IMG/VR virus record: IMGVR_UViG_3300019850_000046
Location: 1 to 27,384 of that record
DNA length: 27,384 nt
Reading direction: 5' to 3' (one strand)
DNA from: a virus
In this document: piece after piece, positions 3,625 to 27,384 of the stretch
Position numbering within the stretch: position 1 is the first letter of the stretch
How the letters are laid out: each line of letters starts with the position of its first letter
Notes under the pieces: model-generated
What the model saw: the letters and a program-made list of their open reading frames with translations, nothing else
What the model was told of the DNA's origin: nothing
Database searches by the model: none
Made by a program: the position numbers and the translations under genes

Positions 3625-5034
3625 TTATGCTCTCCACGCAATTTCTATAACCATAACAGGATCTTCAACTAAAGTAGATGCTGAAAGATAACTTTGTAAA
3701 TAATCATTAGAGTTAATATCTATATTTGTTGATACATCAATATTTCCTGTTGTTGAGTTTATATTTAATGTTGCTATATTAGTAGCAGTATCATTTCTTC
3801 TAACTCTCATATCACAAGTACCATTTGCATCTAATTGACCTGTCATAGATACAATACAAGCATCTCTTGGTATTCTATATCCAGAATTATTTGATGCAAG
3901 ATTACCTACTGCAAAGTTAAGATACTGATTTTTAACACTTCTTCTTCTACCAAATACTAAAGTTTCTCTTTGTACAGATAACCATTTTGTTCTTGTTGAA
4001 TCATAAATGAATAAAATACCATCTTTAACAGCAAATTGACCATCTTGTAATCCTGTTGTTGGTAAAGCAGCTTTAGGTTTTAATTCTAAAGGTGCTGTTG
4101 TAGCAACATCAGTGTCTATTATAACAGGCCCAGCATCAGCAGTAATAGTTCTACCTGCACCAGCACCACCTTCATCATATGCACCGTCTAATGTATTATT
4201 ATCAAGTGCATCTGTCATCTGAGTATTTATATCACCAATTATAGTTTCAAGATCACTTGGACTATTAGGAAAATTTGAATATGTTCCTTCAACATCTATT
4301 TCTGATGCATCATGTTTATTTGGGCCACCATTAAGGTGATCATTAAAATCTACATCAGCAATTTTTAACCAATTATTTGTTTCTGTAGAATATATATATT
4401 GAGCATTTTTTTCATCACCATCATCATTAATCATAATAGCATTATTATCATTTGATTGACCGTTATCTACCCATGCTGCACCATCAAAATGATATAAATT
4501 CTCAGTAGCATTTGTAAGATTTATTACACGATCATCTGTAGATGCACTTCCTTCATCTATCCATGTTGTACCATCCCATTTATAATAATGATTATCATCA
4601 GTATCAATATAAACATCACCTGTTGTTGGTGATGCTGGTGGCGTTGCTACAATATCTAATACTCTATATAATGCAGGTTCTACCCATGATGGTGATCCAA
4701 ATGAAGGAGTATTTGCTATATTTGTCCAATCTACTAAACTACCTGTATTTGGTGTTGTTAATTCTCCTTTTGTATAATGTTTTGTTAAATCATCATATAC
4801 ATTATCTCTTGTAATATAATTAACACCATCTGCTGCAGATAAATCAACAGAACCATTATTGATTACTAAATCACCATTATTTACAAATGATTCAAGTTCT
4901 TTATCATCACTGATATCACTATATTCAAAGAAATCACTTAATGTTAATTGAGTACCATTAAGTATTTCTGTACCTAAATTTTCTAAAACTACTGTACTAC
5001 CACTATTATTTTTTGCTATAACTGTCCATGCCAT
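3625..5034 (-). CDS. Tail fibre/adhesin with shared N- and C-terminal modules
   Basis: This 469-residue protein starts with the shared module (MAWTVIAKNN, ENLG, LSDFFEY, NNGDLVINNG; residues 1-75). The middle carries three successive short repeats of the type 'DxxxYxxDGxxWxDxG' (YYKWDGTTWIDEG, LYHFDGAAWVDNG, YIYSTETNNWLKI; roughly 145-235), a pattern common in phage fibre shafts. A Gly/Ala-rich stretch lies at about 295. From about 330 it has a C-terminal domain of roughly 140 residues (FIYDSTRTKWLSV ... VMVIEIAWRA) that is clearly paralogous to the end of the 272-residue protein encoded at 5050-5868. A good ribosome binding site (AAAGGAGAAA) precedes the start. This is most likely a receptor-interaction fibre. 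Confidence 0.85.
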   Translation of the reverse strand: MAWTVIAKNNSGSTVVLENLGTEILNGTQLTLSDFFEYSDISDDKELESFVNNGDLVINNGSVDLSAADGVNYITRDNVYDDLTKHYTKGELTTPNTGSLVDWTNIANTPSFGSPSWVEPALYRVLDIVATPPASPTTGDVYIDTDDNHYYKWDGTTWIDEGSASTDDRVINLTNATENLYHFDGAAWVDNGQSNDNNAIMINDDGDEKNAQYIYSTETNNWLKIADVDFNDHLNGGPNKHDASEIDVEGTYSNFPNSPSDLETIIGDINTQMTDALDNNTLDGAYDEGGAGAGRTITADAGPVIIDTDVATTAPLELKPKAALPTTGLQDGQFAVKDGILFIYDSTRTKWLSVQRETLVFGRRRSVKNQYLNFAVGNLASNNSGYRIPRDACIVSMTGQLDANGTCDMRVRRNDTATNIATLNINSTTGNIDVSTNIDINSNDYLQSYLSASTLVEDPVMVIEIAWRA

Positions 5035-5049
5035 AATTTATTTCTCCTT

Positions 5050-5868
5050 TTAGTATCTCCATGATAATTCAATAGTTATTATCGGATCTTTTATTGAACT
5101 TGAAGGTGAATCAAAATAACATTGTAAGATATCACCTTCATTTACATCTATATTTATATTTGTGTCCCCATTACCATAATCATTAATAACATCCAACGAT
5201 GTTATTATTGTGTTTGTATTATTCTTTCTTATATAAAATGTTCCTGTTCCTAAATTATGGAATTGACCACTTAAAGATACAATACAAGCATTTCTTATAA
5301 CTCTTAAACTGTTTTTATTACTTGGTATTACACCGCCAAAATAACGAAGGTACTGATTATTTGTTAATCCTTTTTTACCAAAAGATAAAGTTTGTTTATC
5401 AGTTGATAACCATTTATTTCTATTATTATCCTTTATATATAATATATTATCAATAGTATTATACCATTGTTGTCCAAAATTAGCTGAAACAGGTGGTGTA
5501 TTAGATATAGTATACAACTTTTGTAAATCTGTTATATCATAATATAATTGGTTTATATCATCAACTTCAACAAGAGATCCTTTTGCGTAGTAATCTATAT
5601 CTACATTCGTTCCAGCATCATTATTATTAAATGCAATATAACCAGTATTAAAATTAACATAATACTGGCCTGATGGTGGTGGATATGTTGATGTTTCTGT
5701 AAAATTCTGAATTGATAATCTTGAAGATATAGTACCGTCATCAGGAACTTCTATAAGTTCTACAATATTATTTGCAGAAGATGGAATAGTTCTTGTTTCT
5801 TGATAATGTATTTGTTGCCATTGATTATCAATAGATTTCCTTATATTATGTAGAGGAAAATATTTCAT
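5050..5868 (-). CDS. Fibre-like virion protein, paralogue of the downstream fibre C-terminus
   Basis: This 272-residue protein has an N-terminal half with YYVNFNTGYIAFNNNDAGT and VDIDYYAKGSLVEVDDINQL, a strand pattern I associate with phage fibre attachment domains. From about residue 140 to the end (LYIKDNNRNKWLSTDKQTLSFGKK ... IITIELSWRY) it aligns throughout with the C-terminal domain of the 469-residue fibre encoded just downstream, including NQYL, ACIVS(L/M)(S/T)GQ, a basic strand and the final E(L/I)(S/A)WR(Y/A). It lacks the N-terminal module shared by the other fibres, so it may be a connector or a shorter fibre. Its ATG abuts the preceding stop codon. Confidence 0.8.
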   Translation of the reverse strand: MKYFPLHNIRKSIDNQWQQIHYQETRTIPSSANNIVELIEVPDDGTISSRLSIQNFTETSTYPPPSGQYYVNFNTGYIAFNNNDAGTNVDIDYYAKGSLVEVDDINQLYYDITDLQKLYTISNTPPVSANFGQQWYNTIDNILYIKDNNRNKWLSTDKQTLSFGKKGLTNNQYLRYFGGVIPSNKNSLRVIRNACIVSLSGQFHNLGTGTFYIRKNNTNTIITSLDVINDYGNGDTNINIDVNEGDILQCYFDSPSSSIKDPIITIELSWRY

Positions 5869-6480
5869 TTATAACCCTATGAAATGTAATATAGTTGTTA
5901 TTGATTTTGGATTTATCATACCATTAGTTAATATAATCAATGTAATAAGTATACCAATTATTATATATTTGTATTTAATTATTTTATTATACATTTTAGA
6001 CATAGCAGGAATCATTTTCATATCATTATTTATTATACCAGACAACTTATCAAGTTTTAACTCTAAAGATGATAAATCATCTTTTAATTCATTAAGATAT
6101 TTTGATATATTATCTATATCAGATTTTGACATATCTATATTTTTATCCATATCATGTATATTTTTAATAGAATTTTCTATATTTGAAATGTCTTTATAAA
6201 CATGTAATATTTTTTCTTTTAAATCAGTTACATGAACATATTCATTTTCTATATTATCTATTTTTCCTACTAATCTATCTATATCTTTTTGTTGTTCTTT
6301 TAAAACATCATACATATTATGTGTTGTTTCTTCTATAAGTCTTTTATGCGTTTTTAATTCAATGTTATATTTATTATCAATGCTTGATAATAAAATTTGA
6401 ATTTTTTCATCAAGATCTGATATTTTTTCATTTATAGAATTTCTTGTTAAATTACATATATCTGTATTATGCATGGACAT
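5869..6480 (-). CDS. Coiled-coil protein with C-terminal membrane anchor
   Basis: This 203-residue protein is almost entirely helical. Residues about 15-150 are a long Glu/Lys/Asp-rich coiled coil with leucine and isoleucine heptad spacing. Residues about 170-188 (YIIIGILITLIILTNGM) form one clear transmembrane helix near the C-terminus, leaving a short tail. The expected topology is a cytoplasmic coiled coil anchored in the inner membrane. Its start overlaps the end of the receiver-like gene by 14 bases, and that gene in turn overlaps the actin-like ATPase gene. The coupling suggests it is a partner of the filament-forming protein, for instance a membrane anchor. No family is recognised. Confidence 0.75.
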   Translation of the reverse strand: MSMHNTDICNLTRNSINEKISDLDEKIQILLSSIDNKYNIELKTHKRLIEETTHNMYDVLKEQQKDIDRLVGKIDNIENEYVHVTDLKEKILHVYKDISNIENSIKNIHDMDKNIDMSKSDIDNISKYLNELKDDLSSLELKLDKLSGIINNDMKMIPAMSKMYNKIIKYKYIIIGILITLIILTNGMINPKSITTILHFIGL

Positions 6481-6961
6481 ATCTCATTAAATTGTCTGTT
6501 TTTCTATTACCATTATAAAAATCCATATGTTTTGATATTCTTCTTTCTTTTTTTAATTTCAATTGTTTATCAAATTTATATATTTTTATAAGATCCTTTA
6601 TTCGTTTATATACTATTGCAATCCATTTATTACAATCTAATGTTTCTTTTTTAATAATACCATCAACACCTTGTGATATTAATTTCATAGATAATATTGG
6701 ATTATTATCAACGACACATAATATTTTTATATTTTTAAATATTTCTTTTATTTTACTGGTATATTTACTATTTACATCATTACACATTATTAATATATCA
6801 ATATGTTTCATTTGTAATAAAGTATTTATGTTATCAACTAATAATATTGATGATATATTATATTTTTCTTTTAAATTTAATAACAAGTCTTTATGTTCTT
6901 TTGTAAATACACAAACTATATAATCATCAAATACATCATTTTTTGATATTTCACTCATCAT
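6467..6961 (-). CDS. Receiver-like (CheY-fold) protein lacking the phospho-acceptor Asp
   Basis: Residues about 12-118 of this 164-residue protein show the alternating strand-helix rhythm of response-regulator receivers. A third strand IDILIMC occupies the place of the usual 'DLVLLD', a fourth strand is ILCVVDNN, and a following ISQGVDGIIKK resembles the receiver 'AGADGYLLK' with its conserved Lys (104/105). The position where the phosphorylated Asp normally sits is Cys60, and the first-strand acidic pair is absent, so phosphorylation in the usual way seems unlikely. The tail (about 125-164) is very basic. The start codon overlaps the stop of the actin-like gene in an ATGA arrangement. The fold call is inference from pattern only; it could be another Rossmann-like protein. 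Confidence 0.6.
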   Translation of the reverse strand: MMSEISKNDVFDDYIVCVFTKEHKDLLLNLKEKYNISSILLVDNINTLLQMKHIDILIMCNDVNSKYTSKIKEIFKNIKILCVVDNNPILSMKLISQGVDGIIKKETLDCNKWIAIVYKRIKDLIKIYKFDKQLKLKKERRISKHMDFYNGNRKTDNLMRYVHA

Positions 6962-8067
6962 TTCACCTTTAAAGTATCAGCATATAACAAGCATCCTTTA
7001 GAAACTGATGTTAATTTATTTTTAGCTGATATAACATCAGTATATTCAAAAGGTATTTTTACATTGTTTAATTCTTTAGTAAATATATCAACAAATCCAT
7101 CAGGCAATGATGTACCACCTGATATTACAATTGGTATTGGTTCTATTATATTTATATCATTAGATTTGTTAAAAGTATTAATTGTTTGATTAATGGTGTT
7201 TTTAATAACATGAGTATGTGTAAATATAAGTGCTCTTTCTTCTGCAGATACTTTATTCATATCAGCTAATAAATTAAGTTGATTTTCTTTTATATGATTT
7301 ATCATACTTTCAGAAGTTCCTGTTGCTCTTGCACTTTCTTTATCAATAAAATCTCCTGATTTATTTATACTAAAACTAAATAATAACATTCCTTTATAAA
7401 CAAATGCTACATTTACGAGACCAGCACCAAATGAAAAACCAAGACCAGTTGTTTCCTTAGCTTTTTCAAGTTCTGATATAATAACAGCATATGCTTCATT
7501 TAAAGATGTTGGTTTATATCCAAGATTTTCTATAAGAGCTGATATACTCATAGAATGGTATTCTACATTAAATGTTTCATTATCATTTATTGTTTCTGCA
7601 GGAATACTATAAACAACATTAGATCCTTTTTCAGGATTACCTGTTTCAATACTATATCTTAATATTTCTTTTAAGATTAATGCTGATTTTTTTTCTTTTG
7701 GATTAATAACACCTTTTGATAATGGTCTTAGTGATGATGAATTTTGTATTTTTGCCATTGTTAAAGCATCTTCTCCAATTATAAATACTTCGTCGTCTTG
7801 TTTAACATATTTCATAGTATTTAAATTAAACATATTACCATTAAACATGATATCAGGTACTTTATAAAAACAACTTCTCAAAGGAACATAATCTATTTTA
7901 TTTATAGTCTTATGATATGCACCACATACCCATCCAGTACCAACATCCAAACCAATATTTTTTGTTTTCTCTTTTTTTACATTTTTTGTCATATTTCTTA
8001 TTCCTTCTTTTAATACAGGTTCTTTATTTAAAAAAATAATATCATCAACATCATCAACAGTATTCAT
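6958..8067 (-). CDS. Actin-like ATPase (actin/MreB/Hsp70 superfamily)
   Basis: This 369-residue protein belongs to the actin/Hsp70 nucleotide-binding fold. The phosphate-1 loop is IGLDVGTGWV (Asp41, Gly43, Gly45). The connecting helix has LNEAYAVIIS, the counterpart of the EP-AAA motif of MreB and Hsp70. The adenosine motif is VISGGTSLPDGF (315-325). The phosphate-2 loop (FSFGAGLVNVAF, 211-222) is degenerate: the usual Asp is Ser212 and the Thr pair is Leu-Val. Such proteins polymerise to segregate DNA or organise the cell; here a role in positioning phage DNA or assembly is inferred. Codon 26 (ATG at 7992) is an alternative start with a better ribosome binding site (GAAGGA), which would trim the N-terminus to 344 residues. 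ATGA overlaps link it to genes on both sides. Confidence 0.8.
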   Translation of the reverse strand: MNTVDDVDDIIFLNKEPVLKEGIRNMTKNVKKEKTKNIGLDVGTGWVCGAYHKTINKIDYVPLRSCFYKVPDIMFNGNMFNLNTMKYVKQDDEVFIIGEDALTMAKIQNSSSLRPLSKGVINPKEKKSALILKEILRYSIETGNPEKGSNVVYSIPAETINDNETFNVEYHSMSISALIENLGYKPTSLNEAYAVIISELEKAKETTGLGFSFGAGLVNVAFVYKGMLLFSFSINKSGDFIDKESARATGTSESMINHIKENQLNLLADMNKVSAEERALIFTHTHVIKNTINQTINTFNKSNDINIIEPIPIVISGGTSLPDGFVDIFTKELNNVKIPFEYTDVISAKNKLTSVSKGCLLYADTLKVK

Positions 8068-8309
8068 TTTAAATTGCTCTCTACATTTTTATTGTCCAAT
8101 TCAAAAAAAGGTATATCAAATTCATCAGGAATATCATCTATTATTGATATTTTATCTTTTATTTCCTTTTTAATTTTTCTTGTATTTCTACTTATATTTA
8201 TATTATTATGAATATCATTAACCAAAATAAACTTTTTATCAATCAAAGATGTTAATAAAAATATTATTCTATCTTTTAATGTGCATTCTATTTTTATATA
8301 TTCATTCAT
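8064..8309 (-). CDS. Small hypothetical protein upstream of the actin-like ATPase
   Basis: This 81-residue protein is unrecognised. The N-terminal half is hydrophobic (DRIIFLLTSLIDKKFILV) but reads more like a buried helix-strand unit than a membrane span. The centre is basic (NTRKIKKEIKDK) and the tail acidic (DDIPDEFDIPFFELD). It overlaps the start of the actin-like gene by four bases in an ATGA arrangement, so the two are likely made together. A small protein with a basic patch next to a filament ATPase could be an adaptor, but nothing in the sequence proves it. Confidence 0.55.
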   Translation of the reverse strand: MNEYIKIECTLKDRIIFLLTSLIDKKFILVNDIHNNINISRNTRKIKKEIKDKISIIDDIPDEFDIPFFELDNKNVESNLK

Positions 8310-8315
8310 AACAGT

Positions 8316-8876
8316 TTATCTTTTAAATCTATTGAATAGATTTCTGAATATAGAACCACCACCAAATAATCCTTTTTTAACAGTTTTATTATGTTTTCTA
8401 ACATTTGATCTTGTTTCTTTATATTTCTTAGCAAGTTCAAGTTTAATTTTATGTGAATAATCTTTATCAAATGTTGATAATACTGCATCCTCGACCTTAT
8501 CAACAGGTATTTCATATGGATGTTGTATATAGTAAATTGGTTTTGTCATATATCGTCTAATAGCAAATCTTAAATATGGATATTGACGTTTCATTATCTC
8601 ATATGTAAATTTAAGATTACCGTTATTCACTTCATAATTATGTTGCCATTGAATAATAAAAAATCTTCTATGTGTTCTTGGTATATAATTCATATTAACA
8701 CCTTGAATTAAACGCCATTGATGACCTGTAGATGGATTTATTCCTGTTATTCTATAAAAAAGAATAATCAAAGGTGTAGGATCTTGATTCCATGCTTTAT
8801 AACGAAATGTATAAAAATAACCACTTCTCCATAATAATCCATGTGATCTAAATGTATAATCAATTTTTAATGCCAT
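8316..8876 (-). CDS. Conserved phage protein, probably virion-associated
   Basis: This 186-residue protein is rich in Tyr, Arg and Trp. Its N-terminal half carries YTFRYKAWNQDPTPLIILFY, then GHQWRLIQGVNMNYIPRTHR, a pattern I associate with a conserved protein of T4-superfamily phages without a settled function. The C-terminal third is strongly basic, with a Gly-rich turn (GLFGGGSIFRN) and a final FNRFKR. It sits 3 bases after the gp4-like gene. In T4 the gene after 4 is the baseplate wedge gene 53, but this sequence does not look like gp53, so I do not transfer that name. DNA or nucleoprotein contact is plausible from its charge. Confidence 0.65.
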   Translation of the reverse strand: MALKIDYTFRSHGLLWRSGYFYTFRYKAWNQDPTPLIILFYRITGINPSTGHQWRLIQGVNMNYIPRTHRRFFIIQWQHNYEVNNGNLKFTYEIMKRQYPYLRFAIRRYMTKPIYYIQHPYEIPVDKVEDAVLSTFDKDYSHKIKLELAKKYKETRSNVRKHNKTVKKGLFGGGSIFRNLFNRFKR

Positions 8877-8879
8877 AAT

Positions 8880-9359
8880 TCATCTTATTAGTTGTTTTTC
8901 TGTTATTATTTTAAAAAACCATCCTTTTCTTCTACAATATGCACGAGCGGATTCCCATTTTGCAGAATTTACTGCCCATGTTTTTGCTTCATAAAGTTGT
9001 GTTTTCTTTGATTTTCTTTTTCCTTGAGATGGTGGCATTGTTTCTTTATAAGGTTTTATTTCTACTAACCATATATCAACATTTTCATTTTTATTTAATA
9101 TTTTGCATATAAAATCAGGAAAATACCGTCTTTTTTTATATTGACCTTTATAATCTTTTTGTGTTCTATCTATATAAGGTATTTGTATAGGTTCAGATCC
9201 CCATTGTAAAATTGATGGTGAATTATCACACCATTTACAGAATATAAGTTCCCATGAAGATCTACAAACACAATACCCTTCTTTACCTATATATTTTTCT
9301 TTATGTATAGGTTTATAAACAGTATCATTTTTTCCTATTTTAGTATGCATAAATGACAT
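8880..9359 (-). CDS. 4: Head completion protein, T4 gp4-like
   Basis: This 159-residue protein matches T4 gp4 (also called gp50/65) across its length: a start motif RSSWELIFCKWCD, then ILQWGSEPIQIPY, KKRRYFPDF, a strand with EIKPYKETMPP, and a C-terminal TWAVNSAKW followed by RKGWFFKIITE. T4 gp4 is 150 residues with the same order of motifs. FPDF and EIK resemble the acidic residues and Lys of a PD-(D/E)xK nuclease core, consistent with a nuclease-like fold. The protein acts after DNA packaging, finishing the head so that the tail can join. It is the firmest T4-type marker in the leftward operon. Confidence 0.85.
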   Translation of the reverse strand: MSFMHTKIGKNDTVYKPIHKEKYIGKEGYCVCRSSWELIFCKWCDNSPSILQWGSEPIQIPYIDRTQKDYKGQYKKRRYFPDFICKILNKNENVDIWLVEIKPYKETMPPSQGKRKSKKTQLYEAKTWAVNSAKWESARAYCRRKGWFFKIITEKQLIR

Positions 9360-9384
9360 CTTATCACCACAGTTTTTAAATATT

Positions 9385-9648
9385 TTATTTATGATATAAA
9401 TCGTACTTTTTCTTTGATTGTTTATATTGTGAAGTTTTCTTATATTTCTTTAAATATTTCTTAGCTTTAAGTTTCATTGAAGGATTGTTTTTTCTTTCTT
9501 TACTCTTCTTTTTTAACTGTTTTTTATATTTTAGTTTTTCTGTCCCAGTAAGTTTAGATGCTTGTGATCTTCTTTTACCATGATTTACTTTATGTGTTTT
9601 ATAAGTATATTCTTTTAATATATTTTCTATTTTCTTTAAAATATCCAT
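9385..9648 (-). CDS. Small, very basic protein
   Basis: This 87-residue protein has about one third Lys plus Arg and few hydrophobic residues after the first helix. The sequence is dominated by KKLKYKK-type stretches, which favours nucleic-acid binding and intrinsic disorder. The short N-terminal helix (MDILKKIENILKEY) could be a dimer or docking segment. A good ribosome binding site (AGGAGATAAATAATG) overlaps the end of the upstream gene, whose last base is shared with this start. It lies directly upstream of gp4, so it may be a packaged DNA-binding or core component, but this is inference from charge and position. Confidence 0.65.
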   Translation of the reverse strand: MDILKKIENILKEYTYKTHKVNHGKRRSQASKLTGTEKLKYKKQLKKKSKERKNNPSMKLKAKKYLKKYKKTSQYKQSKKKYDLYHK

Positions 9649-10199
9649 TATTTATCTCCTAATGCATACATATTTTTATATGCAGTACCTATTTTATCTG
9701 GTTTATTTTTTTTCTTTTTATTTAAATTTGCTTTAATTTTACTAATACTTACTTTTCCAGTAACAATCAATACCCATATTAACGCATATGATAACACATA
9801 TTTAATATCAGCACCACCTTGATTTTTTACAAGTTTATCAAGTTCAAGTAATGCTTCTAATAATGGATAAAAACTCATTGCACCATATAGATTATTAACC
9901 ATTTCTTTCCAAAAAGAATTATCCTCCAATAAAATACCTTCTTTAAGAGATAATTTATTCAATTGATTTAAATTAGTATATGTTCCATTACCTAATAATT
10001 TATTGATAATAAATAATAATTCTTTTTCTACATTATGTGTTTTAGCAAATGATACAACATACCTAAATGATTTCTGTATTTTATCTTTTGCTTTATTCCA
10101 TGTCCAATTCTTTATTTTATTAATAGCATCTCTAAATGCTGATTTACTTTCAAATAATATAATATTGTCTTGTTCTTTTAATAATATATCAATATTCAT
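9648..10199 (-). CDS. Phage membrane/core-like protein, first gene of the leftward operon
   Basis: This 183-residue helical protein is not assigned to a family. Residues 1-17 end in ILFE, and the next 60 are Lys-rich amphipathic helices. The central part (FWKEMVNNLYGAMSFYPLLE, LLELDKLV) is helical. Residues about 133-150 (YVLSYALIWVLIVTGKVSI) make one likely membrane helix, followed by a basic tail. A strong ribosome binding site (AAGGAGAATTTATG) precedes it, and a T4-type late promoter box on the same strand lies 24 bases upstream. It is oriented oppositely to 10280. Likely a late virion or core protein. Confidence 0.65.
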   Translation of the reverse strand: MNIDILLKEQDNIILFESKSAFRDAINKIKNWTWNKAKDKIQKSFRYVVSFAKTHNVEKELLFIINKLLGNGTYTNLNQLNKLSLKEGILLEDNSFWKEMVNNLYGAMSFYPLLEALLELDKLVKNQGGADIKYVLSYALIWVLIVTGKVSISKIKANLNKKKKNKPDKIGTAYKNMYALGDK

Positions 10200-10222
10200 A
10201 AATTCTCCTTTTATATTATATA

Positions 10223-10236
10223 TATTTATATAAATA
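10223..10236. promoter_or_regulatory. Overlapping divergent T4-type late promoter boxes
   Basis: The palindromic segment TATTTATATAAATA contains the T4 late -10 consensus TATAAATA on the + strand (10229-10236) and the same octamer on the - strand (10223-10230), overlapping by two bases. It lies in the only divergent intergenic region of the window, 24 bases before the leftward start (10199) and about 43 before the rightward start (10280). Chance matches are not rare in such A+T-rich DNA, but the paired placement and spacing support real promoters. Confidence 0.6.
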
Positions 10237-10279
10237 AAACATAAATAACTATATAAGATAAATATTTAATAGGTAAATT

Positions 10280-10954
10280 ATGAGATTGAAAAATTATTTA
10301 ATAGAAATGTCAGCATCAAAAAAGAATGGTATAACTTTTATTGATATTGATGAAACCATATACCATACCTTTGCACAGATATATGTTATTAAAAATAACA
10401 AAATTATTAAGAAACTTAATAATCAGGAATTCAATACATATAAATTGAAAGATGGTGAAAGTTATGATTTTAGAGAATTTAAAGATGCTAAATTGTTTGC
10501 AGAAACAAGTATTTCTATAAAACCTATGATAAATAGAATTAAGAAGATGTTAAAATCAATAGATGATAAAGGAAAAGAATCAAAAATTGTATTTCTTACA
10601 GCAAGATCAGATTTTGATAAAAAACATAGATTTTTATCTAAATTTGAAGATGATGGCATAAATATTGATAAAATCTATGTTGAACGAACAGGTAATATGA
10701 AAACTGGAACTGTTGCTGAACGAAAAAAAAGTGTTGTTCTTAAATATCTTTCATCAGGTAAATATTTAAAATGTAGATTGATAGATGATGATATAACAAA
10801 TCTTAAAGAATTTAAAAAAGTACAAAACAAAATACCAGAATCAACTTATGATGATATAAGGAAATATTATAAAGATGATTCTTTAGAACCTAATGATCTT
10901 GAATTTTATGCATTGTTAATGCAATCAAATGGAAAACTTAAATTAATAAAATGA
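10280..10954 (+). CDS. HAD-superfamily phosphatase-like phage protein
   Basis: This 224-residue protein carries the HAD fold motifs. Motif I is FIDIDETIY with nucleophile Asp22 and Asp24. Motif II is VFLTARSDF with Thr107. A Lys lies at about 149/150. Motif IV is RLIDDDITN with acidic residues 169-171. The central part (KKLNNQEFNTYKLKDGESYD) is conserved in a family I associate with T4-superfamily phages. All catalytic positions look intact, so phosphohydrolase activity is possible; the substrate is unknown. The N-terminus MRLKNYLIE resembles the L-x-E processing sites of T4 internal proteins. A weak ribosome binding site (AATAGG) precedes the start, which lies downstream of a late box. Confidence 0.75.
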   Translation: MRLKNYLIEMSASKKNGITFIDIDETIYHTFAQIYVIKNNKIIKKLNNQEFNTYKLKDGESYDFREFKDAKLFAETSISIKPMINRIKKMLKSIDDKGKESKIVFLTARSDFDKKHRFLSKFEDDGINIDKIYVERTGNMKTGTVAERKKSVVLKYLSSGKYLKCRLIDDDITNLKEFKKVQNKIPESTYDDIRKYYKDDSLEPNDLEFYALLMQSNGKLKLIK

Positions 10955-13727: not shown

Positions 13728-14837
13728 ATGTATAAAATAAAAGGATATATCTTTTCTGATTCTATTGAAGATGGAGCACTTAATCAGTTTTATTCAGCAA
13801 TGGAACAGGATTATGTTGTTAAGGGTGCATTGATGCCTGATGCCCATAAAGGGTATGGTCTTCCTATTGGTGGTGTTGTTGCTACTAAAGGTGTTATAGT
13901 TCCATCATGGGTTGGATATGATATTGGATGTGGTATGTGTGCCATTAAAACATCTTTTAATATTGATGATATCAAGAAAAATGTAAATTCAATATATAAT
14001 GATATTATTGATACTATTCCTGTTGGTTTTAATAAAAGAAATATACCTGTATGTAAAGATGTTATTGAAGATGTTGAAAGAAAATTATCTGATGATCTTT
14101 GTAATATTTTACAGGAAAAAAATGCACTACATGCTTTAGGTACTTTAGGTGGTGGTAATCATTTTTTAGAAATAGGATATGGACGTGATAATTCTATTTG
14201 GATTATTATTCATTCAGGATCTCGTGGCCCAGGCCATGGTTGTGCAACTCATTATATGAAACTTGCCGGTGGTGGTAAAGCAAGAGAAGGTCATTATCCA
14301 TTGAATGTTGATTCAATTGAAGGTAAGAACTATATAAAAGATCTTGATTTTATGTTAGGTTATGCTTTACTTAATAGAATGTATATGATCAAAGATGTTG
14401 TTAAGATTTTGAAAAAATATTCTAATGGTGGTGTTCATTGGGGTGATATTATTAACAGAAATCATAATCATGCAGAATGTAAAGATGGAATATGGATACA
14501 CCGTAAAGGTGCTACTCATGCAGATGCTGGTATGTTTGGTGTTATTCCAGGCAATATGCGTGATGGTAGTTTTATTGTAAAAGGTAAAGGATCTGAATTA
14601 TCTTTATGTTCTTCTTCTCATGGTGCAGGAAGGGTATTAAGTCGTAATATAGCAAAGAAAACTTTAAATGTAGATGATTTTACTGATACAATGAAAGGTA
14701 TCAAATGTAATGCTTCTAAAAATACTTTAGATGAATCACCTTTTGCATATAAAGATATTTTTGAAGTAATGAATGATCAGAAAGATCTTGTAGAAGTTAT
14801 TGATTACATTAAACCTATTATAAATGTAAAAGGTTAA
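13728..14837 (+). CDS. rtcB: RtcB-type RNA ligase
   Basis: This 369-residue protein is a complete RtcB, which joins RNA 2',3'-cyclic phosphate or 3'-phosphate ends to 5'-OH ends using GTP and Mn2+. Visible motifs are GYDIGCGM (metal ligands Asp65 and Cys68), GGGNHFLE (Asn144, His145), IHSGSRG (His162), NRNHNHAE, a GVHWGD segment, and CSSSHGAGR with His298, the expected guanylylated His. The 17-residue spacing between His145 and His162 equals that in E. coli RtcB. At 369 residues it is somewhat shorter than the usual 400 or so. In phages such ligases may repair tRNAs cut by host anticodon nucleases. The ribosome binding site is weak. Confidence 0.92.
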   Translation: MYKIKGYIFSDSIEDGALNQFYSAMEQDYVVKGALMPDAHKGYGLPIGGVVATKGVIVPSWVGYDIGCGMCAIKTSFNIDDIKKNVNSIYNDIIDTIPVGFNKRNIPVCKDVIEDVERKLSDDLCNILQEKNALHALGTLGGGNHFLEIGYGRDNSIWIIIHSGSRGPGHGCATHYMKLAGGGKAREGHYPLNVDSIEGKNYIKDLDFMLGYALLNRMYMIKDVVKILKKYSNGGVHWGDIINRNHNHAECKDGIWIHRKGATHADAGMFGVIPGNMRDGSFIVKGKGSELSLCSSSHGAGRVLSRNIAKKTLNVDDFTDTMKGIKCNASKNTLDESPFAYKDIFEVMNDQKDLVEVIDYIKPIINVKG

Positions 14838-14922: not shown

Positions 14923-16809
14923 ATGAAATATTACAGAAACATATATTATGATACCTATAAATCAAAAATATATTTATGGGATTATAAAGGTAGAATGATA
15001 CAAGAGCCATGGGTTCCTTATCTTTTTATGAAAACTGATAAAGATACAGGATTACATGATATTTATGGTAATTCTGTTAATAAAATACCTTTTGATTCTT
15101 ATAAAGAATATAAATTGTTTCAAAAAAATAATTATGATGTTCAAGAGAATAATGTAATTCCTTCTATCCAATATCTTACAAAAAAATATAGTGATAACGA
15201 TAATACAGAATTACCAAATTTGCATATATGTTTTTTAGATATTGAATGCCCACATGATGATGGATTTCCAAATGTTAAAGATGTTCCTGCTGAAATTGTA
15301 TTGATATCTATTATAGATGAAACAGGTAAAATAACAGTATTTGGTAAAAATGATTATAATAGTGATAAATATCCAAATGTTGAATATATATATTGTAAAA
15401 ATGAACATGATTTATTGAATTCATTTTTTAATTGGTTCAATAAAGAACGGTTTGATGTTATTTCAGGATGGAATATTAACAGAAATAATAAAACAAATAT
15501 GTATGGTGGGTTTGATACACCATATATTATAAGAAGATCTATAAAGATATTTGGTGAAAATGGATCTAATCATAAATTATTATCACCTATCAATAAAATT
15601 ACTATAAGAGAATCAAATATAAAAAATGGAGTATATGATGTTGATATTGCAGGATTATCAATTATAGATTATCTTGCTTTATATAAATGGTTTAGTTTTA
15701 ATAATCTTGAATCATTTACACTTGGTTATGTATCAAGTATAGAATTAAATGATACAAAAAATGATTATTCGGAATATGATTCCATGTATGATTTTTATAA
15801 ACAAGATTGGAATGGATTTGTTGATTATTGTATAAAGGATTCTGATTTAGTATATAGATTAGAAAAAAAACTTGGTTATATTGATCTTGCGCAAATGCTA
15901 ACATGTTATTGTGGATGTCAAATGATGAGTTATAATTCATCAGTGCCATTGATTGAAGGATTAATGTTGAAATATTATAGGAATAATGATTTATGTGCTC
16001 CTAAAATGGAAGGTGGAAAACAAATTTGGTTTCCTGCAGCATATGTTAAAAATCCAAAAGTAGGTTTATATAAAGATGTAGTTGATCTTGATATTGCTTC
16101 AAGTTATCCTACACATATTATTATTTTGAATATGTCAATTGAAACATATTATGGTAGAATCATAGGTTATAATAAAAAAGATGTTAATGATTATTATAAG
16201 AATAATGGTATTCATGAACCTCTGCATAAAGGAAGACCAATATATGATATAAATATTAAACATACAAGACAAAGAAAATACCCATCTTTTGCTTTATTAA
16301 ATAAAGATGATAAAGTAATATGGTATAATGATAAAAAACTTGACTTATTTAATAAAGCATTGGAAAGAGGTTTGTTTTGTATCGCTCCAAATGGTGTTAT
16401 ATTTACAACAAATAAAAAAGGAACTATTTCTTATGTTGAACAACGCACCTTTGAAGAAAGAGTAAAACAGAAAGGATTAAAAACAAAATATAAAAATAAA
16501 GCAAAGGAAGATCATGAAAATGCAAAACATTGGAAAGAATTAGCACAAAATAAACATGTTCTCCAGTGGGCGATCAAGATCTTAATTAATTCGATGTTTG
16601 GCGTGCTGGGTGTTCCTTATTGTAGATATTTTAATCCACATATCGCTGAGGCAATAACCAGTTGTGGGCGACATACAATATTGAATTGTGAAAAATTTGT
16701 AAATGATTTAGTAAATTCACCTGATGAAGGTTTAATAAATATCTTTAAAGAAATAGAAGAAGAAATAGAAAAATGCCAAAAAGAAAAACAACTAAACAAT
16801 TTATTATAG
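14923..16809 (+). CDS. 43A: Family B DNA polymerase, N-terminal part (exonuclease, motifs A and B)
   Basis: This 628-residue protein holds the first two thirds of a T4 gp43-like polymerase. The exonuclease motifs are FLDIECP (Asp106, Glu108), SGWNINR...GGFDTPYIIRR, and YCIKDSDLVYRL. The polymerase motif A is LDIASSYPT (Asp390), and motif B is KILINSMFGVLG (Lys552, Asn556), with Phe where T4 has Tyr. Homology ends near KEIEEEIEK; the last residues are read from DNA that overlaps the start of the HNH gene. Motif C and the thumb are missing here and occur 1.9 kb downstream at 18704. The two products together total 922 residues, close to the 898 of T4 gp43. They probably assemble into one enzyme. 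No clear ribosome binding site is seen. Confidence 0.92.
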   Translation: MKYYRNIYYDTYKSKIYLWDYKGRMIQEPWVPYLFMKTDKDTGLHDIYGNSVNKIPFDSYKEYKLFQKNNYDVQENNVIPSIQYLTKKYSDNDNTELPNLHICFLDIECPHDDGFPNVKDVPAEIVLISIIDETGKITVFGKNDYNSDKYPNVEYIYCKNEHDLLNSFFNWFNKERFDVISGWNINRNNKTNMYGGFDTPYIIRRSIKIFGENGSNHKLLSPINKITIRESNIKNGVYDVDIAGLSIIDYLALYKWFSFNNLESFTLGYVSSIELNDTKNDYSEYDSMYDFYKQDWNGFVDYCIKDSDLVYRLEKKLGYIDLAQMLTCYCGCQMMSYNSSVPLIEGLMLKYYRNNDLCAPKMEGGKQIWFPAAYVKNPKVGLYKDVVDLDIASSYPTHIIILNMSIETYYGRIIGYNKKDVNDYYKNNGIHEPLHKGRPIYDINIKHTRQRKYPSFALLNKDDKVIWYNDKKLDLFNKALERGLFCIAPNGVIFTTNKKGTISYVEQRTFEERVKQKGLKTKYKNKAKEDHENAKHWKELAQNKHVLQWAIKILINSMFGVLGVPYCRYFNPHIAEAITSCGRHTILNCEKFVNDLVNSPDEGLINIFKEIEEEIEKCQKEKQLNNLL

Positions 16810-17918
16810 ATGCAAAAAAAATTCATGGTAATAAATATGACTATTCTTTAGTTCAATATAAAAACTGGTCTTCAAAAATTAAAATCATATGTCCTGAACA
16901 TGGTACATTTGAACAAAGGGCAGGAAATCATTTACAGGGATATGGTTGTTCTAAATGTGGTATTATAAAATTATCAATAAAAGGAAGAAAAAACAATCAA
17001 CAGTTTATAGAAGATGCCTATTGTAAGCATGGTGATAAATATAATTATAAACTTGTTGAGTATAAAAGATCATGTGATAAAATAAAAATTATATGCCCTG
17101 TACATGGTATATTTGAACAAGAAGCAAATGCTCATTTAAATGGACAAGGGTGTCCTAAATGTGGTATTATACTAAGAAAAAATAAACGGAGAAAAACAAC
17201 ACGACAGTTTATAGAAGATGCAAAAAAAGTACATGGTGATAAATATGATTATTCTTTAGTACAATATAAAAATAATAGCACCAAAGTTAAAATAATATGT
17301 CCTGTACATGGTGTCTTTGAACAAAAACCAAATGCTCATTTAAATGAAAATAATTGTCCTAAATGTTCTGGTAGATATGAAAAAAAATATGCAAAGGATA
17401 ATATACCTGTTTATGATACATATGCAAATCAGTTAGAACCTTATGGTATTGCTTGTAGAAGAAATAAAGAAGATGAAAATATATTAGAAGTTAAGTGTAT
17501 GTATTGTGATAGATGGTATATGCCTTCTATGATATCTGTATATGGTAAAATAAAATGCATAAAAGGAAATTCACAAGGAGAATCAAATCTTTACTGTTCT
17601 GATACATGCAAACAAGCATGTCCTACTTATGGACAAATTTTATATCCTAAAGGATTTAAGAATGATAAAACAAACACTTCAAGGGAAGTGCAACCCGCAT
17701 TAAGGAAACGTGTTTTAAAAAGGGATAACTATACATGTCAAAGATGTAGTGCAACTGATATAGAATTGCATTGCCACCATTATGAAGGTATAGAAATTAA
17801 TCCTATTGAATCAGCGGATGCAGATAATTGTATTACCTTATGCAAAAACTGTCATAATGATATACATAAAGCTGATAAATGTGGTATTAAACAGTATCAA
17901 AGAAAGGAATGCAAATAG
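16773..17918 (+). CDS. HNH homing endonuclease with three zinc-ribbon-like repeats
   Basis: This 381-residue protein has three tandem repeats of about 55 residues starting QFI at residues 9, 77 and 145, an exact 68-residue period. Each carries HG(D/N)KY(D/N)Y, IKIICPxHGxFEQ and CPKCG, as in DUF723-type DNA-binding repeats of homing endonucleases. Residues about 205-300 hold more Cys pairs (CMYC, CSDTC). The C-terminus is an HNH nuclease: RDNYTCQRC (Cys322, Cys325), LHCHHYEG (His335/336) and LCKNCHNDIH (Cys357, Cys360, His361, His365), with zinc and catalytic residues present. It interrupts the polymerase between motifs B and C, and its start overlaps the upstream part by 37 bases. A near-identical C-terminus lies at the right edge of the window. 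Confidence 0.9.
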   Translation: MPKRKTTKQFIIDAKKIHGNKYDYSLVQYKNWSSKIKIICPEHGTFEQRAGNHLQGYGCSKCGIIKLSIKGRKNNQQFIEDAYCKHGDKYNYKLVEYKRSCDKIKIICPVHGIFEQEANAHLNGQGCPKCGIILRKNKRRKTTRQFIEDAKKVHGDKYDYSLVQYKNNSTKVKIICPVHGVFEQKPNAHLNENNCPKCSGRYEKKYAKDNIPVYDTYANQLEPYGIACRRNKEDENILEVKCMYCDRWYMPSMISVYGKIKCIKGNSQGESNLYCSDTCKQACPTYGQILYPKGFKNDKTNTSREVQPALRKRVLKRDNYTCQRCSATDIELHCHHYEGIEINPIESADADNCITLCKNCHNDIHKADKCGIKQYQRKECK

Positions 17919-18505: not shown

Positions 18506-18707
18506 TCAATATGATGATTTACCTTCTCTTTATGATGAAAATGGTAATTATGTATATGATTTAAATAAATTAAATATTGGTGATTATTATTTATTAAATA
18601 AAAATACAGAATATAAAGATAAAAACGATAAGGTTTCTGTATATGAGATTATAAATAAAAATAATTTATCAATTGAATCCAAAATAACTATATTAAAATT
18701 AAAATGA
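18486..18707 (+). CDS. Small acidic hypothetical protein before the polymerase C-part
   Basis: This 73-residue protein (MKEITVNQYDDLPSLYDENG ...) is acidic with alternating strand-like segments. Its start overlaps the Lar-like gene by 20 bases. Its stop TGA overlaps the ATG of the polymerase C-terminal part in an ATGA arrangement, so its translation may supply ribosomes for that gene, which has no Shine-Dalgarno sequence of its own. No family recognised. Confidence 0.6.
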   Translation: MKEITVNQYDDLPSLYDENGNYVYDLNKLNIGDYYLLNKNTEYKDKNDKVSVYEIINKNNLSIESKITILKLK

Positions 18708-19588
18708 ACAAAAGTGTCAAAACAGATAATATTATATATATTGATACTGATTCTGTATTTTTTAGTATTTCTAATATTTTAGAAAATAATGGTATAGGTA
18801 ATGATAAATGGTTTTCTATTGATAAAGAAATAAGAATAAAATACATTATCAAAATATCAAAATATATAGAAACTGTTGTAAATAATAGAAGTTATCATGA
18901 AACACAATTACTTGATTATAATTCCTGTGTTCATCAAGATGATTTTAGTATAAAATTAAAACAGGAAATAATTTGTGCTAATGCTTTATTCTTAAAATCT
19001 AAAATGTATGCGTTTTGGGTTATCAATGAAGAAGGTTATGATACTGATAAAATTGATGCAAAAGGTATTGAAATTGTTAGATCATCATCACCTACAGTAT
19101 TTAGAGTTGCTCTTAAAGAAATTCTTAATTTGTTATTAAAAGATAAATCAGATGATGAAATGTCTAATATTGTTAAAAAATATAAGAAAGAGTTTTATAC
19201 TGCATCGCCAGAAGATATATCAGTTAATATAGGTGTCAATGGAATTAATAAATATATTATAAATGATGAATTTAAAAAAGGAACACCATATCATATCAAA
19301 GGTGTTGCTAACTATCATAAATTATTAAAAGAATTTGGTATTGATAAAAAGTATAATTTTATTCATGAGGGTGATAAATGTAAAGTAGCATATATTAAAC
19401 CTAATAAATATAACATTGATGTTATTACATTTTATAAATATCCAAAAGAATTTCTTGACAATGGTATTTATATTGATTATGATATCATGATTGAAAAGTA
19501 TTTTATCAAAAAGGCAAATATTATTTTAGAACCAATAACTAAATCATATATTCTTGAAGATACTAATATTATGGATACATTTTTTTAA
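18704..19588 (+). CDS. 43B: Family B DNA polymerase, C-terminal part (motif C, palm and thumb)
   Basis: This 294-residue protein begins just before motif C: IIYIDTDSVFF with catalytic Asp14 and Asp16. The following features match T4 gp43 after motif C: a YAFWVINEEGYDTDKIDAKG strand, EIVRSSSPTVFRVALKE helix, then PYHIKGVANYHKLLK, and a final ILEDTNIMDTFF. The last hydrophobic residues (TFF) resemble the C-terminal clamp-binding tail of T4 polymerase. Alone it cannot work, since motifs A and B are on the separate N-part product. The start shares the ATGA overlap with the small gene upstream, and no independent ribosome binding site is visible. Confidence 0.9.
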   Translation: MNKSVKTDNIIYIDTDSVFFSISNILENNGIGNDKWFSIDKEIRIKYIIKISKYIETVVNNRSYHETQLLDYNSCVHQDDFSIKLKQEIICANALFLKSKMYAFWVINEEGYDTDKIDAKGIEIVRSSSPTVFRVALKEILNLLLKDKSDDEMSNIVKKYKKEFYTASPEDISVNIGVNGINKYIINDEFKKGTPYHIKGVANYHKLLKEFGIDKKYNFIHEGDKCKVAYIKPNKYNIDVITFYKYPKEFLDNGIYIDYDIMIEKYFIKKANIILEPITKSYILEDTNIMDTFF

Positions 19589-21197: not shown

Positions 21198-21671
21198 ATG
21201 ATTATAACTATACTTACATTTCTATTATTATCTAATGGATATGATATATCTAATACTATATATGATAATTCATATCTTGATAAAGATCAATTAGTTAATA
21301 TGTTATCAACAGAAGAATCATTATGTTTATCAAGAGCATTATATTTTGAGGCAAGAGGGGAATCAATAGAAGGAATAAATAAAGTATCTTCTGTTATAAT
21401 CAATAGAAAATATAATGAAAAATTCCCTAATACAATATGTGAAGTAATAAATCAGAAACATCAATTTACATATGATCATAGTAAAATAATTTTAGATAAA
21501 AAAGTATATGATAGAATGAAATATTATGCTTTATTGAATATAAATAAAAAAGATACAATAAGAGATGATAACATTTTATATTATCATACAAAAAATATAA
21601 ATTTAAAATGGGATAACAATCTTAAAATGGTTTATAAGATAGGAAACCATTTATTTTACAGGGAATATTAA
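21198..21671 (+). CDS. SleB-type cell wall hydrolase (endolysin candidate)
   Basis: This 157-residue protein carries the Hydrolase_2 (SleB) motif LSRALYFEARGES (Glu51 as probable catalytic acid), followed by GINKVSSVIINRKY and, later, QFTYDHS and YYHTKNINLKWDN, typical of this peptidoglycan-cleaving family. Residues 1-12 (MIITILTFLLLSN) form a hydrophobic N-terminal segment that could export or anchor it, as in signal-arrest-release endolysins; the segment is short, so this is uncertain. It would cut the cell wall at lysis. A ribosome binding site (AAGGT) is present, and the hairpin at 21116 separates it from the upstream gene. Confidence 0.85.
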   Translation: MIITILTFLLLSNGYDISNTIYDNSYLDKDQLVNMLSTEESLCLSRALYFEARGESIEGINKVSSVIINRKYNEKFPNTICEVINQKHQFTYDHSKIILDKKVYDRMKYYALLNINKKDTIRDDNILYYHTKNINLKWDNNLKMVYKIGNHLFYREY

Positions 21672-22304: not shown

Positions 22305-22946
22305 ATGTTTAAAGTAAATAAGAAAGATAAATATGTTTTATTATTTTCAGGTGGTTATGATTCAACCACAATTTTAATAAATGTTCTTAAATCAGGAAAT
22401 AGAAATATATCTTGTGTGTATATAGATATTCCTAATAATAAAGATAAATCAAAGATTGAAATAAAACGATGTAAAAAGATATTAAAATGTCTTAATAAAG
22501 AATATGACATTAAGATACCTTTTAATATTTATAAAAGTGCAATTGTTCCTACTAAAAACACTTGTTCTTATACATTACCATATTTATATATAACAACTTT
22601 AATACCAGTTCTTGAATATGATACTGATTATGTATTATTTGGTTTTATAAGAACTGATGATATTTGGCATTGTTATCAACAATTTGAAGATTCTTTTAAA
22701 AGTTTAAATTGTATTATAAGATGTACAAGATATAACAATTCAAATTATTCTAACTGTATAATATGGGCACCTCTTGAATATCATTTTAAAAAAGATATTA
22801 TTAAGTATATTAAAAAATATAAGAAAATCTATAAGTTATGTTGGACTTGTGAATCTCCTACCAAAAAAGGCAAACCGTGTGGTAAATGTTGTACTTGTAT
22901 AAAATATAAGAAGACATTAAAAGAATTAAAAATAAAGACAAAATAA
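22305..22946 (+). CDS. PP-loop ATPase, QueC-like
   Basis: This 213-residue protein has the PP-loop LLFSGGYDSTT (15-21) that binds ATP in the adenylating N-type ATP pyrophosphatases. Its C-terminus carries CWTCESPTKKGKPCGKCCTC, a Cys cluster in the position of the zinc site of QueC, which turns 7-carboxy-7-deazaguanine into 7-cyano-7-deazaguanine (preQ0). preQ0 feeds queuosine, or deazaguanine modification of phage DNA against restriction. Other genes of that pathway (FolE, QueD, QueE or a Dpd transglycosylase) are not visible here, so a different substrate is possible. It starts directly after the zinc-knuckle gene. Confidence 0.7.
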   Translation: MFKVNKKDKYVLLFSGGYDSTTILINVLKSGNRNISCVYIDIPNNKDKSKIEIKRCKKILKCLNKEYDIKIPFNIYKSAIVPTKNTCSYTLPYLYITTLIPVLEYDTDYVLFGFIRTDDIWHCYQQFEDSFKSLNCIIRCTRYNNSNYSNCIIWAPLEYHFKKDIIKYIKKYKKIYKLCWTCESPTKKGKPCGKCCTCIKYKKTLKELKIKTK

Positions 22947-23038: not shown

Positions 23039-24130
23039 ATGAAAAAACTATTACAAGAAAATTTTGATTATCTTACGCAATTATCAATACGAGAATATAC
23101 TTTATATAGAAAATTTATAGATATTAAAGATCGTTATCCTATAAAAGAAGATCCTTTTTTTGGTGCTGATGAATTGCAATATAAAAATTTAACTGTAGTG
23201 AAAGATAATATATGGATACCTAATGATATTAATGATTATCTTAAAATAGAACCTGAACTTGTATTTGTTGATAATAAGGAATATAATTTTATTTGGAATA
23301 CATTAAGGCATTTTTGTCATTCAGCGGTTTGGCATCAGTCTCCGGGGCGTCTATTACGTTTTTTTATCAAAGATAAAATTACAAATAAATATTTGGGTTT
23401 TATATCTCTTGGTAGTGATTTTATAGGTGTTGGTGGTCGTGATGTATATATTGGATGGACTAATGAACATAAATTAAAAAATGGTATGTTAAGACATACA
23501 GCAATGGCATCAACAATTGCTTCAGTACAACCTTTTGGTTTTAATTATAATGGTGGAAAACTTATAGCATTATTAGCAGCCAGTAATCCAGTTCAAAATA
23601 AATGGTACGAAAAATATAATGAGTCATTAATTGGCGTAACGACTACTTCTTTATATGGTGGTGGTTCTATGTATAACCGTTTAAAATATTGGAGAAAATG
23701 CAAATCTACAACAGGAGAAATATCTATTGAACCATCAGAAGATGTTTATAATATTATAAAAGAATGGTATAAAAAAGAATATCCAATAGAATATAAGAAA
23801 GCCATATCAGGATCTCATCCCAAAACAAGGGTTTTAGGACAAATATATAAAATTCTTAACATTAAACCACCAATAAATAATGCACCAAGAGGTGTTTATT
23901 GGAATGAATTATATAACAATACAAAAGAGTATCTCTGCATGAAAACTGATAATTTATCAGATAAAAAATATGACAACTCTGTAGAATCATTAACAGAATT
24001 ATGGAAAGAACGATATGCAAAAAAAAGAGTCTTAAATCTATCAAAAGATAATAGATTTAAGACTGATGTTTTATTTTATGATAATATGATATATAATGAT
24101 TGGACTTATATCAAAAACAAATATCTCTAA
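23039..24130 (+). CDS. DUF4338 (DruA-like) family protein
   Basis: This 363-residue protein matches the DUF4338 pattern: GRLLRFFIKDKITNKYLGFI, then SLGSDFIGVGGRDVYIGWT, LRHTAMASTIASVQPFGFNY, and, further on, YNESLIGVTTTSLYGGGSMYNRLKYW. The family includes DruA of the Druantia defence system and phage proteins of unknown role. No nuclease motif is obvious. It is the last gene of the rightward block and converges on the leftward gene ending at 24137, with only six bases between the two stops and no terminator visible. Its short start MKKLLQE may carry an L-x-E processing motif. Confidence 0.75.
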   Translation: MKKLLQENFDYLTQLSIREYTLYRKFIDIKDRYPIKEDPFFGADELQYKNLTVVKDNIWIPNDINDYLKIEPELVFVDNKEYNFIWNTLRHFCHSAVWHQSPGRLLRFFIKDKITNKYLGFISLGSDFIGVGGRDVYIGWTNEHKLKNGMLRHTAMASTIASVQPFGFNYNGGKLIALLAASNPVQNKWYEKYNESLIGVTTTSLYGGGSMYNRLKYWRKCKSTTGEISIEPSEDVYNIIKEWYKKEYPIEYKKAISGSHPKTRVLGQIYKILNIKPPINNAPRGVYWNELYNNTKEYLCMKTDNLSDKKYDNSVESLTELWKERYAKKRVLNLSKDNRFKTDVLFYDNMIYNDWTYIKNKYL

Positions 24131-27207: not shown

Positions 27208-27384
27208 TCACAAATTTTCCTTTATTATTTTACCTTCCTTGCCTTCTTTGCATTCTTTTCTTTGATATTGTTTAATGCCACATTTATCAGCTTTATGTAT
27301 TTCATTATGACAATCTTTACATAATGTAATACAATTGTCTGCATCAGCAGATTCAATAGGATTAACTTCTACACCTTCATAATG
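27208..27384 (-). CDS. HNH homing endonuclease, C-terminal end (partial)
   Basis: Read from the right edge, the frame encodes HYEGVEVNPIESADADNCIT and LCKDCHNEIHKADKCGIKQY, ending KEGKIIKENL and TGA at 27208-27210. Over 46 residues it matches the C-terminus of the HNH protein at 16773 at 42 positions, so it belongs to the same family and the copies diverged recently. The N-terminal repeats and most of the nuclease domain lie outside the window. Compared with the first copy it has an extra tail of 12 residues (EGKEGKIIKENL). Confidence 0.85.
   Translation of the reverse strand, partial: HYEGVEVNPIESADADNCITLCKDCHNEIHKADKCGIKQYQRKECKEGKEGKIIKENL

Follow-up and report, generated by a model that had tools for sequence, protein, structure and literature searches.

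A stretch of viral DNA (IMGVR_UViG_3300019850_000046, positions 1 to 27,384; the window, meaning the whole 27,384 nucleotides analysed) encodes an actin of the volactin family within a four-gene set at 5869-8309 on the minus strand, after head genes of T4 type. The pairing of this actin with a short upstream gene, proposed to encode its adaptor, is conserved across a clade of T4-type phages, and a membrane-anchored coiled coil recurs downstream; both observations are firm. More broadly, actins of this family, which has so far been studied in haloarchaea, are encoded in hundreds of candidate viral stretches, where they have a fixed place in virion gene clusters and dedicated partner genes beside them. 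The findings suggest that certain large phages make actin filaments of their own, under signal control, during virion assembly. To the specific reading that the set is expressed late and makes an actin filament, tethered to the membrane and modulated by signals, which places virions or assembly sites, we give about an even chance.

A coupled four-gene set in a virion gene cluster

The first-pass annotation, made from the letters alone, had described four successively overlapping genes for a small protein, an actin-like ATPase, a receiver-like protein and a membrane coiled coil. All four open reading frames were recovered on the minus strand at the positions given (8309-8064, 8067-6958, 6961-6467 and 6480-5869), and the overlaps were read directly in the sequence: orfA and the actin gene share ATGA at 8067-8064, the actin gene and orfC share ATGA at 6961-6958, and orfC and orfD overlap by exactly 14 bases (6480-6467). 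The frames are far beyond chance length for a sequence of 24.6% G+C. The longest ATG frame in Markov-1 simulations of the same stretch (n = 500) had 88 codons; at least 81 codons were reached in 2 of 500 simulations and at least 164 in none. For each of the four, the codon score was highest in its own frame. The features discussed below are as follows; L165 denotes a T4-type relative.

8880-9359, minus strand: T4 gp4-type head completion protein, upstream neighbour (phrog_218 head closure, E 1.8e-46)
8316-8876, minus strand: gp2-like protein, DNA end protector type, upstream neighbour (46% identity to L165 7090-7611)
8064-8309, minus strand: orfA, 81 aa, proposed actin adaptor (same place in 7/7 clade phages, ends conserved)
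8220-8285, minus strand: orfA N-terminal amphipathic stretch, residues 9-30 (hydrophobic moment 0.34)
8070-8114, minus strand: orfA C-terminal peptide IPFFELDNKNVESNL, proposed actin-binding motif (10/15 identical to L165, E 4e-5)
6958-8067, minus strand: volactin-family actin, 369 aa (PF25216, E 2.4e-55, 188.7 bits against a cut-off of 35)
7936-7953, minus strand: phosphate-1 motif GLDVGT of the actin, residues 39-44 (D, G and T in 157/158 family rows, the other row being a gap)
7411-7434, minus strand: phosphate-2 motif SFGAGLVN, residues 212-219, with Ser first (Ser in 158/158 rows)
7108-7122, minus strand: adenosine motif SGGTS, residues 316-320 (both G in 158/158 rows)
6467-6961, minus strand: orfC, 164 aa, possible degenerate receiver, unproven (position of the true receiver in L165)
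5869-6480, minus strand: orfD, 203 aa, coiled coil with C-terminal transmembrane segment (heptad contrast above 300/300 shuffles; one transmembrane segment)
5926-5982, minus strand: orfD transmembrane segment, residues 167-185 (Kyte-Doolittle mean 2.09 over 19 residues)

The genes are read in the order gp4, gp2-like, orfA, actin, orfC and orfD as one run on the same strand, and the next gene directly follows orfD. The gp4-type head protein (phrog_218), which assigns the window to the T4-type phages, was matched in 2,491 of 50,697 phage records. The gp2-like protein of the window had no family match of its own in Pfam or PHROG; its L165 relative matches phrog_429, 'DNA end protector' (E 9.3e-5). 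In another relative, L175, a T4 portal gene (PF07230, E 2.6e-94) lies close to the actin. The earlier placement of the set between head and fibre genes of a virion operon stands on the upstream side, where the gp4 and gp2-like genes are found, whereas the 'fibre' label downstream was a guess for genes that encode repetitive, virion-type proteins.

This layout bears on one alternative, namely that the set segregates or centres phage DNA as ParMRC or AlpAC do, with orfA as a ParR-like adaptor tying DNA to the filament during long infections. According to the accessible text of PMC4446434, AlpC and AlpA of the Corynebacterium prophage CGP3 likewise comprise a phage-coded actin and a co-transcribed adaptor in a two-gene layout; AlpA, however, binds repeat DNA (24 alpS repeats) and alpAC is early. 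Compared by layout and description, the window has no such repeats, a late-type cluster and membrane partners. Every direct-repeat family found within 5800-10400 has two copies, and there is no room for a centromere because orfA starts 6 bases past the gp2-like gene; the absence of repeat arrays and of centromere space weakens the DNA-segregation reading. A Pfam search of orfA gave no domain at E<=1, hence none that is DNA-binding, and the late-gene position of the set also argues against this role, which we consider very unlikely.

The actin has a polymer-type fold and belongs to the volactin family

The description of the 369-aa protein as actin-like was borne out in that sequence profile and structural model firmly assign it a polymer-type actin fold within the volactin family. 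Two further T4-type members matched PF25216 with E 1.5e-59 and 6.3e-57, and the window actin gave no PHROG family at E<=1 and no match to PDB sequences. An AF2 model based on 19 aligned sequences, including that of the window, reached a pLDDT of 85.3 and a pTM of 0.84, with residues 1-32 disordered. When this model (m445b95e49899) was compared with 986 PDB chains, 985 scored Z>=8, and the closest solved structures were filament-forming actins: MamK (Z 29.8, the best score; rmsd 2.9 over 299 residues), BeeR (28.2), MreB (26.9) and crenactin (26.3). The family alignment comprises 158 rows (7 T4-type, 71 huge-phage-type and 80 from genome contigs), and all of its invariants are present in the window actin (D41, G43, T44, S212, G214, G216, N219, G238, D239, I241, D242, G317 and G318).

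Volactin of Haloferax volcanii (HVO_2015) falls in the same family by PF25216 and has the same invariants, including the first serine of phosphate-2. It forms dynamic filaments whose tips contact the membrane, and it shapes cells, according to the accessible part of PMC10869688. The two proteins differ in setting, the Haloferax protein being archaeal and the window actin being part of a late phage operon that has another adaptor as well as coiled-coil and sensor genes. They also fall on separate branches: a quick tree of the 158 rows, which carried a long-branch warning, placed 7/7 T4-type rows in one group with support of 100, apart from archaeal volactin.

Relatives are encoded in many viral and cellular stretches

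Among 50,697 deposited phage records, tblastn matched the actin in two, LR745208 (485 kb) and LR756511 (595 kb). In IMG/VR a relative was encoded in 402 of 452 candidate stretches and in GTDB genomes in 204 of 462 (80 kept from each), figures that refer to stretches picked by short patterns and are not genome counts. The GTDB relatives include haloarchaea, Archaeoglobaceae, Planctomycetota and Omnitrophota. An IMG/VR scan with the single window actin sequence returned nothing, and relatives emerged only with alignment queries. Neither orfC nor the gp2-like protein gave relatives as a single-sequence query; since the gp2-like protein nevertheless has a 46%-identical relative, these two misses reflect only the limit of the method. 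Queries with the L165 receiver and the L176 coiled coil found nothing beyond duplicates of the contigs from which they came. Scans with closer alignments found L165, L166, L175, L176, L180 and L005, several as duplicate contigs, which with the window make seven distinct T4-type members.

The pair of proposed adaptor and actin is conserved across the T4-type clade

A short gene of 75-103 aa with an amphipathic N-terminal stretch precedes the actin in 7/7 T4-type members, one extra gene separating the two in L176. The hydrophobic moment of the stretch equivalent to that of orfA was 0.30-0.41 in L165, L166 and L005, and docking to a membrane or virion part is a possible role for it. The products end in [IV]PFF[ED]...[VI][KE]SN[FLI] (IPFFE....VxSN) in six of the seven members, the ending of L005 being divergent. 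Position and motif thus support a role of orfA as actin adaptor, as judged from sequence.

Downstream of the actin, a membrane-anchored coiled coil was found in 5/7 members (window, L165, L166, L176 and L180). The first-pass description of orfD as a membrane coiled coil was correct, and orfD aligned with its L165 counterpart at E 0.003, a single comparison of coiled coils. In L165, the actin is followed by a receiver and then by a coiled coil with a C-terminal transmembrane segment. L176 encodes a transmembrane coiled coil followed by a protein whose PAS and GAF matches are below threshold; L166 has a transmembrane coiled coil and then the start of a protein resembling this PAS/GAF protein. 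L180 has a GAF protein above the cut-off, a transmembrane coiled coil and a PAS protein below the Pfam cut-off. Neither coiled coil nor sensor follows the actin in L175. In L005, only a small DUF350 membrane protein follows, and a hybrid histidine kinase is encoded 3.5 kb upstream. Between this kinase and the actin, on the phage contig, L005 6588-7466 encodes a protein with the sequences HYSGHGS and DCCHSG, which we take to be caspase-like motifs.

The earlier annotation had proposed looking for the same gene order in relatives, with scattered genes as the sign against a module. The whole four-gene order recurs in L165, with a true receiver, and the actin and membrane coiled coil recur together in five of seven members. 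The order common to the window and L165 is gp4, gp2-like, adaptor, actin, orfC or receiver, and coiled coil, orfC itself being unrecognisable as a receiver. Scattering thus affects the set in part: adaptor and actin stay together in all seven members, whereas the other two genes are partly scattered, since neither is present beside the actin in L175 and L005, and only a single other phage has a receiver there.

The place of orfC is taken by signalling-type proteins in some relatives

The 'receiver-like' label given to orfC failed on the protein's own sequence, and what favours it is the position shared with the L165 gene. At E<=1 there was no Pfam match, and 315/969 shuffles scored as high against the receiver profile; orfC was accordingly rejected as a receiver by sequence. 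Its AF2 model, made without an alignment, had a pLDDT of only 46, and the best PDB match (E 0.12) stood among receivers mixed with Rossmann folds. MAFFT misaligned orfC with the L165 receiver, and this alignment was therefore not used. The L165 gene in its place encodes a genuine response-regulator receiver (PF00072, 41.3 bits against a cut-off of 30.2, E 2e-10), and the 170,951-base record has no other PF00072 match. Elsewhere, in Omnitrophota, a CheY-like receiver gene lies shortly upstream of volactin (L096 5273-5671 and L124 5258-5656).

Receiver, GAF and hybrid-kinase domains beside the actin in relatives raise the alternative of a host-directed set that disturbs the host cytoskeleton or two-component signalling, for takeover or for exclusion of other phages. 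The L165 record gave no match to HATPase_c or a kinase, so that its receiver would need a kinase from the host, which also fits such a role. Against it stands the stable linkage to late virion genes across the clade, host-takeover genes being usually early and scattered. We regard a host-directed role as quite unlikely.

Dedicated partner genes precede volactins in huge phages and cells

We compared 73 distinct viral loci (window included), 10 of 83 having been dropped as duplicates. Genes were called mechanically, as longest frames with the first start, and called starts are therefore often too early. A frequent order was a ~460-aa protein, a ~180-aa protein, a ~215-aa partner, the actin, a ~395-aa protein, a ~145-aa zinc-ribbon protein and a long protein. 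A profile of the last 60 residues of the partner, built from 22 proteins of the same loci, matched 45/73 loci (E<=0.01). In 44/45 the hit preceded the actin, both being encoded on one strand; the locus not so counted is by elimination L040, where the actin start, as called, runs into the hit. This profile matched neither the window nor L005. The N-domain of the huge-phage partner is related to N-domains of virion-type proteins of the window (975, 2268 and 3625), L165 and L180 (hhalign E 2.6e-5, 0/59 controls as high). In L007 (9286-9942) and related huge-phage loci, a Ferritin/Dps-like gene (PF00210, E 6e-8) lies between adaptor and actin.

The long huge-phage protein has 940-1,665 aa and sheath-like features, among them an N-terminal pattern that we presume to be tail-sheath-like, and its Pfam sheath match (E 0.025) falls below the cut-off; 'tail sheath' is accordingly a weak, sequence-based label. 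Its presence bears on the alternative that the actin is a virion assembly factor, a monomeric or short-oligomer ATPase scaffold that aids neck and tail joining and forms no long filaments. PilM and FtsA are scaffolds of this kind. The huge-phage actin does lie among neck and tail genes, between the ~460/~180-aa pair and the zinc-ribbon and sheath-like proteins, and that of the T4-type clade comes after gp4 and gp2. However, MamK, BeeR and MreB, the closest folds, are filament formers, the family member that has been studied (H. volcanii volactin) polymerises, and a membrane coiled coil and sensor proteins would be unexpected for a neck factor. We judge an assembly factor unlikely.

Cellular volactins likewise come with an upstream partner gene. 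The gene upstream of volactin in Haloferax and Archaeoglobaceae encodes a DUF7139 membrane protein, a likeness to the phage set in that membrane-type genes are found in both, and that in Planctomycetota a charged, helical-looking protein. In L106 the upstream partner gene sits inside a gas-vesicle cluster; the volactin gene itself lies within this cluster (3645-9346; GvpL/F x3, GvpG and GvpA), which suggests an actin for gas-vesicle positioning.

Most pairs of partner C-termini, among the two main huge-phage groups, Planctomycetota, gas-vesicle and haloarchaeal partners, scored above all 37 control C-termini. The gas-vesicle/haloarchaeal pair, several Archaeoglobus-group pairs and all pairs of short L004-type partners did not; these L004-type upstream genes (76-84 aa), considered as members of another adaptor group, matched none clearly. 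The T4-clade peptide (7 sequences) exceeded all 37 controls against the Planctomycetota adaptor peptide; its scores with the gas-vesicle group and with the two main huge-phage groups were equalled or exceeded by 2, 7 and 32 of the 37 controls, respectively, so that kinship with the other adaptor peptides is suggestive only. Two candidate relationships were discarded. An alignment of the window orfA with the huge-phage adaptor peptide was above 37/37 controls with two sequences, but its residues lined up poorly, and with seven sequences 32/37 controls were as high or higher. An adaptor helix in the N-terminal extension of the actin was also considered, and the profile search reported no such match.

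A broader proposal, which we put forward tentatively and hold to be rather doubtful, is that volactins are general cargo-positioning actins. The gene just upstream would set the cargo by joining a cargo or membrane domain (the gas-vesicle cluster in bacteria, the membrane in archaea, a virion-type domain in huge phages) to a shared C-terminal actin-binding peptide. Phages of the T4-type clade would have gained a membrane coiled coil and a sensor (receiver, GAF or PAS) as well, and theirs would be the first signal-gated viral cytoskeleton.

A proposed late, membrane-tethered actin module

From the family, the fold, the adaptor-actin pairing and the recurrent coiled coil, we infer a filament acting late, during virion assembly, that orfA and orfD would tether and orfC-type proteins would modulate. 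The set would be a phage cytoskeletal module made late, together with the head-completion genes. The actin would bind ATP and, by analogy with Haloferax volactin, polymerise. The C-terminal peptide of orfA, as IPFFELDNKNVESNLK, would bind the actin, and the N-terminal amphipathic helix may dock orfA to the membrane or to a component of the virion. By contact with the filament, orfD could hold or space it at the inner membrane. A regulatory input would come from orfC, or from the receiver, GAF or PAS protein that replaces it, and may change filament assembly or attachment on a host or cell signal. The module could in this way bring assembling virions or packaged heads to defined sites on the membrane, comparable to MamK with magnetosomes and PhuZ with capsids.

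Relation to described cytoskeletal systems

To our knowledge, the known phage cytoskeletons are tubulin (PhuZ) and ParM-like actins tied to DNA. The PhuZ spindle of nucleus-forming jumbo phages is, in the accounts accessible, a phage filament that positions DNA and virions, as proposed for the window set; PhuZ is a tubulin, whereas the window protein is an actin. The magnetosome filament MamK offers the closest solved fold (Z 29.8) and, again in the accounts accessible, a filament and cargo adaptor logic like that proposed here. It differs in sequence (15% identity in the alignment), and its cargo and adaptors are unrelated as far as tested.

The module had been called undescribed, and no phage volactin was found in the literature searched, preprints and subscription journals lying largely outside the search. 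The accessible parts of two jumbo-phage overviews (PMC7824862, PMC13282480) name tubulin and no actin homologue, and those of PMC12619734 and PMC12363816 contain no phage actin. The salactin paper (PMC10746226) mentions neither phage nor volactin; none of the papers found to mention volactin, PMC7617734 among them, appears to concern phages.

Other genes of the window

Elsewhere in the window, a family B DNA polymerase is split in two frames with an endonuclease-like frame between (14923-16809, 16773-17918 and 18704-19588), and an HNH-type fragment similar to this endonuclease-like frame lies at the window end (27208-27384). Genes of QueC-like, RtcB-like and cell-wall-hydrolase type were found at 22305-22946, 13728-14837 and 21198-21671, respectively, and a DruA (Druantia) domain protein is encoded at 23039-24130 (PF14236, E 5.6e-27). 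Of the 50,697 phage records, one alone, that of the 642-kb huge phage LR756502, has a relative of the AAA ATPase at 25238-26581 with >80% coverage (30% identity).
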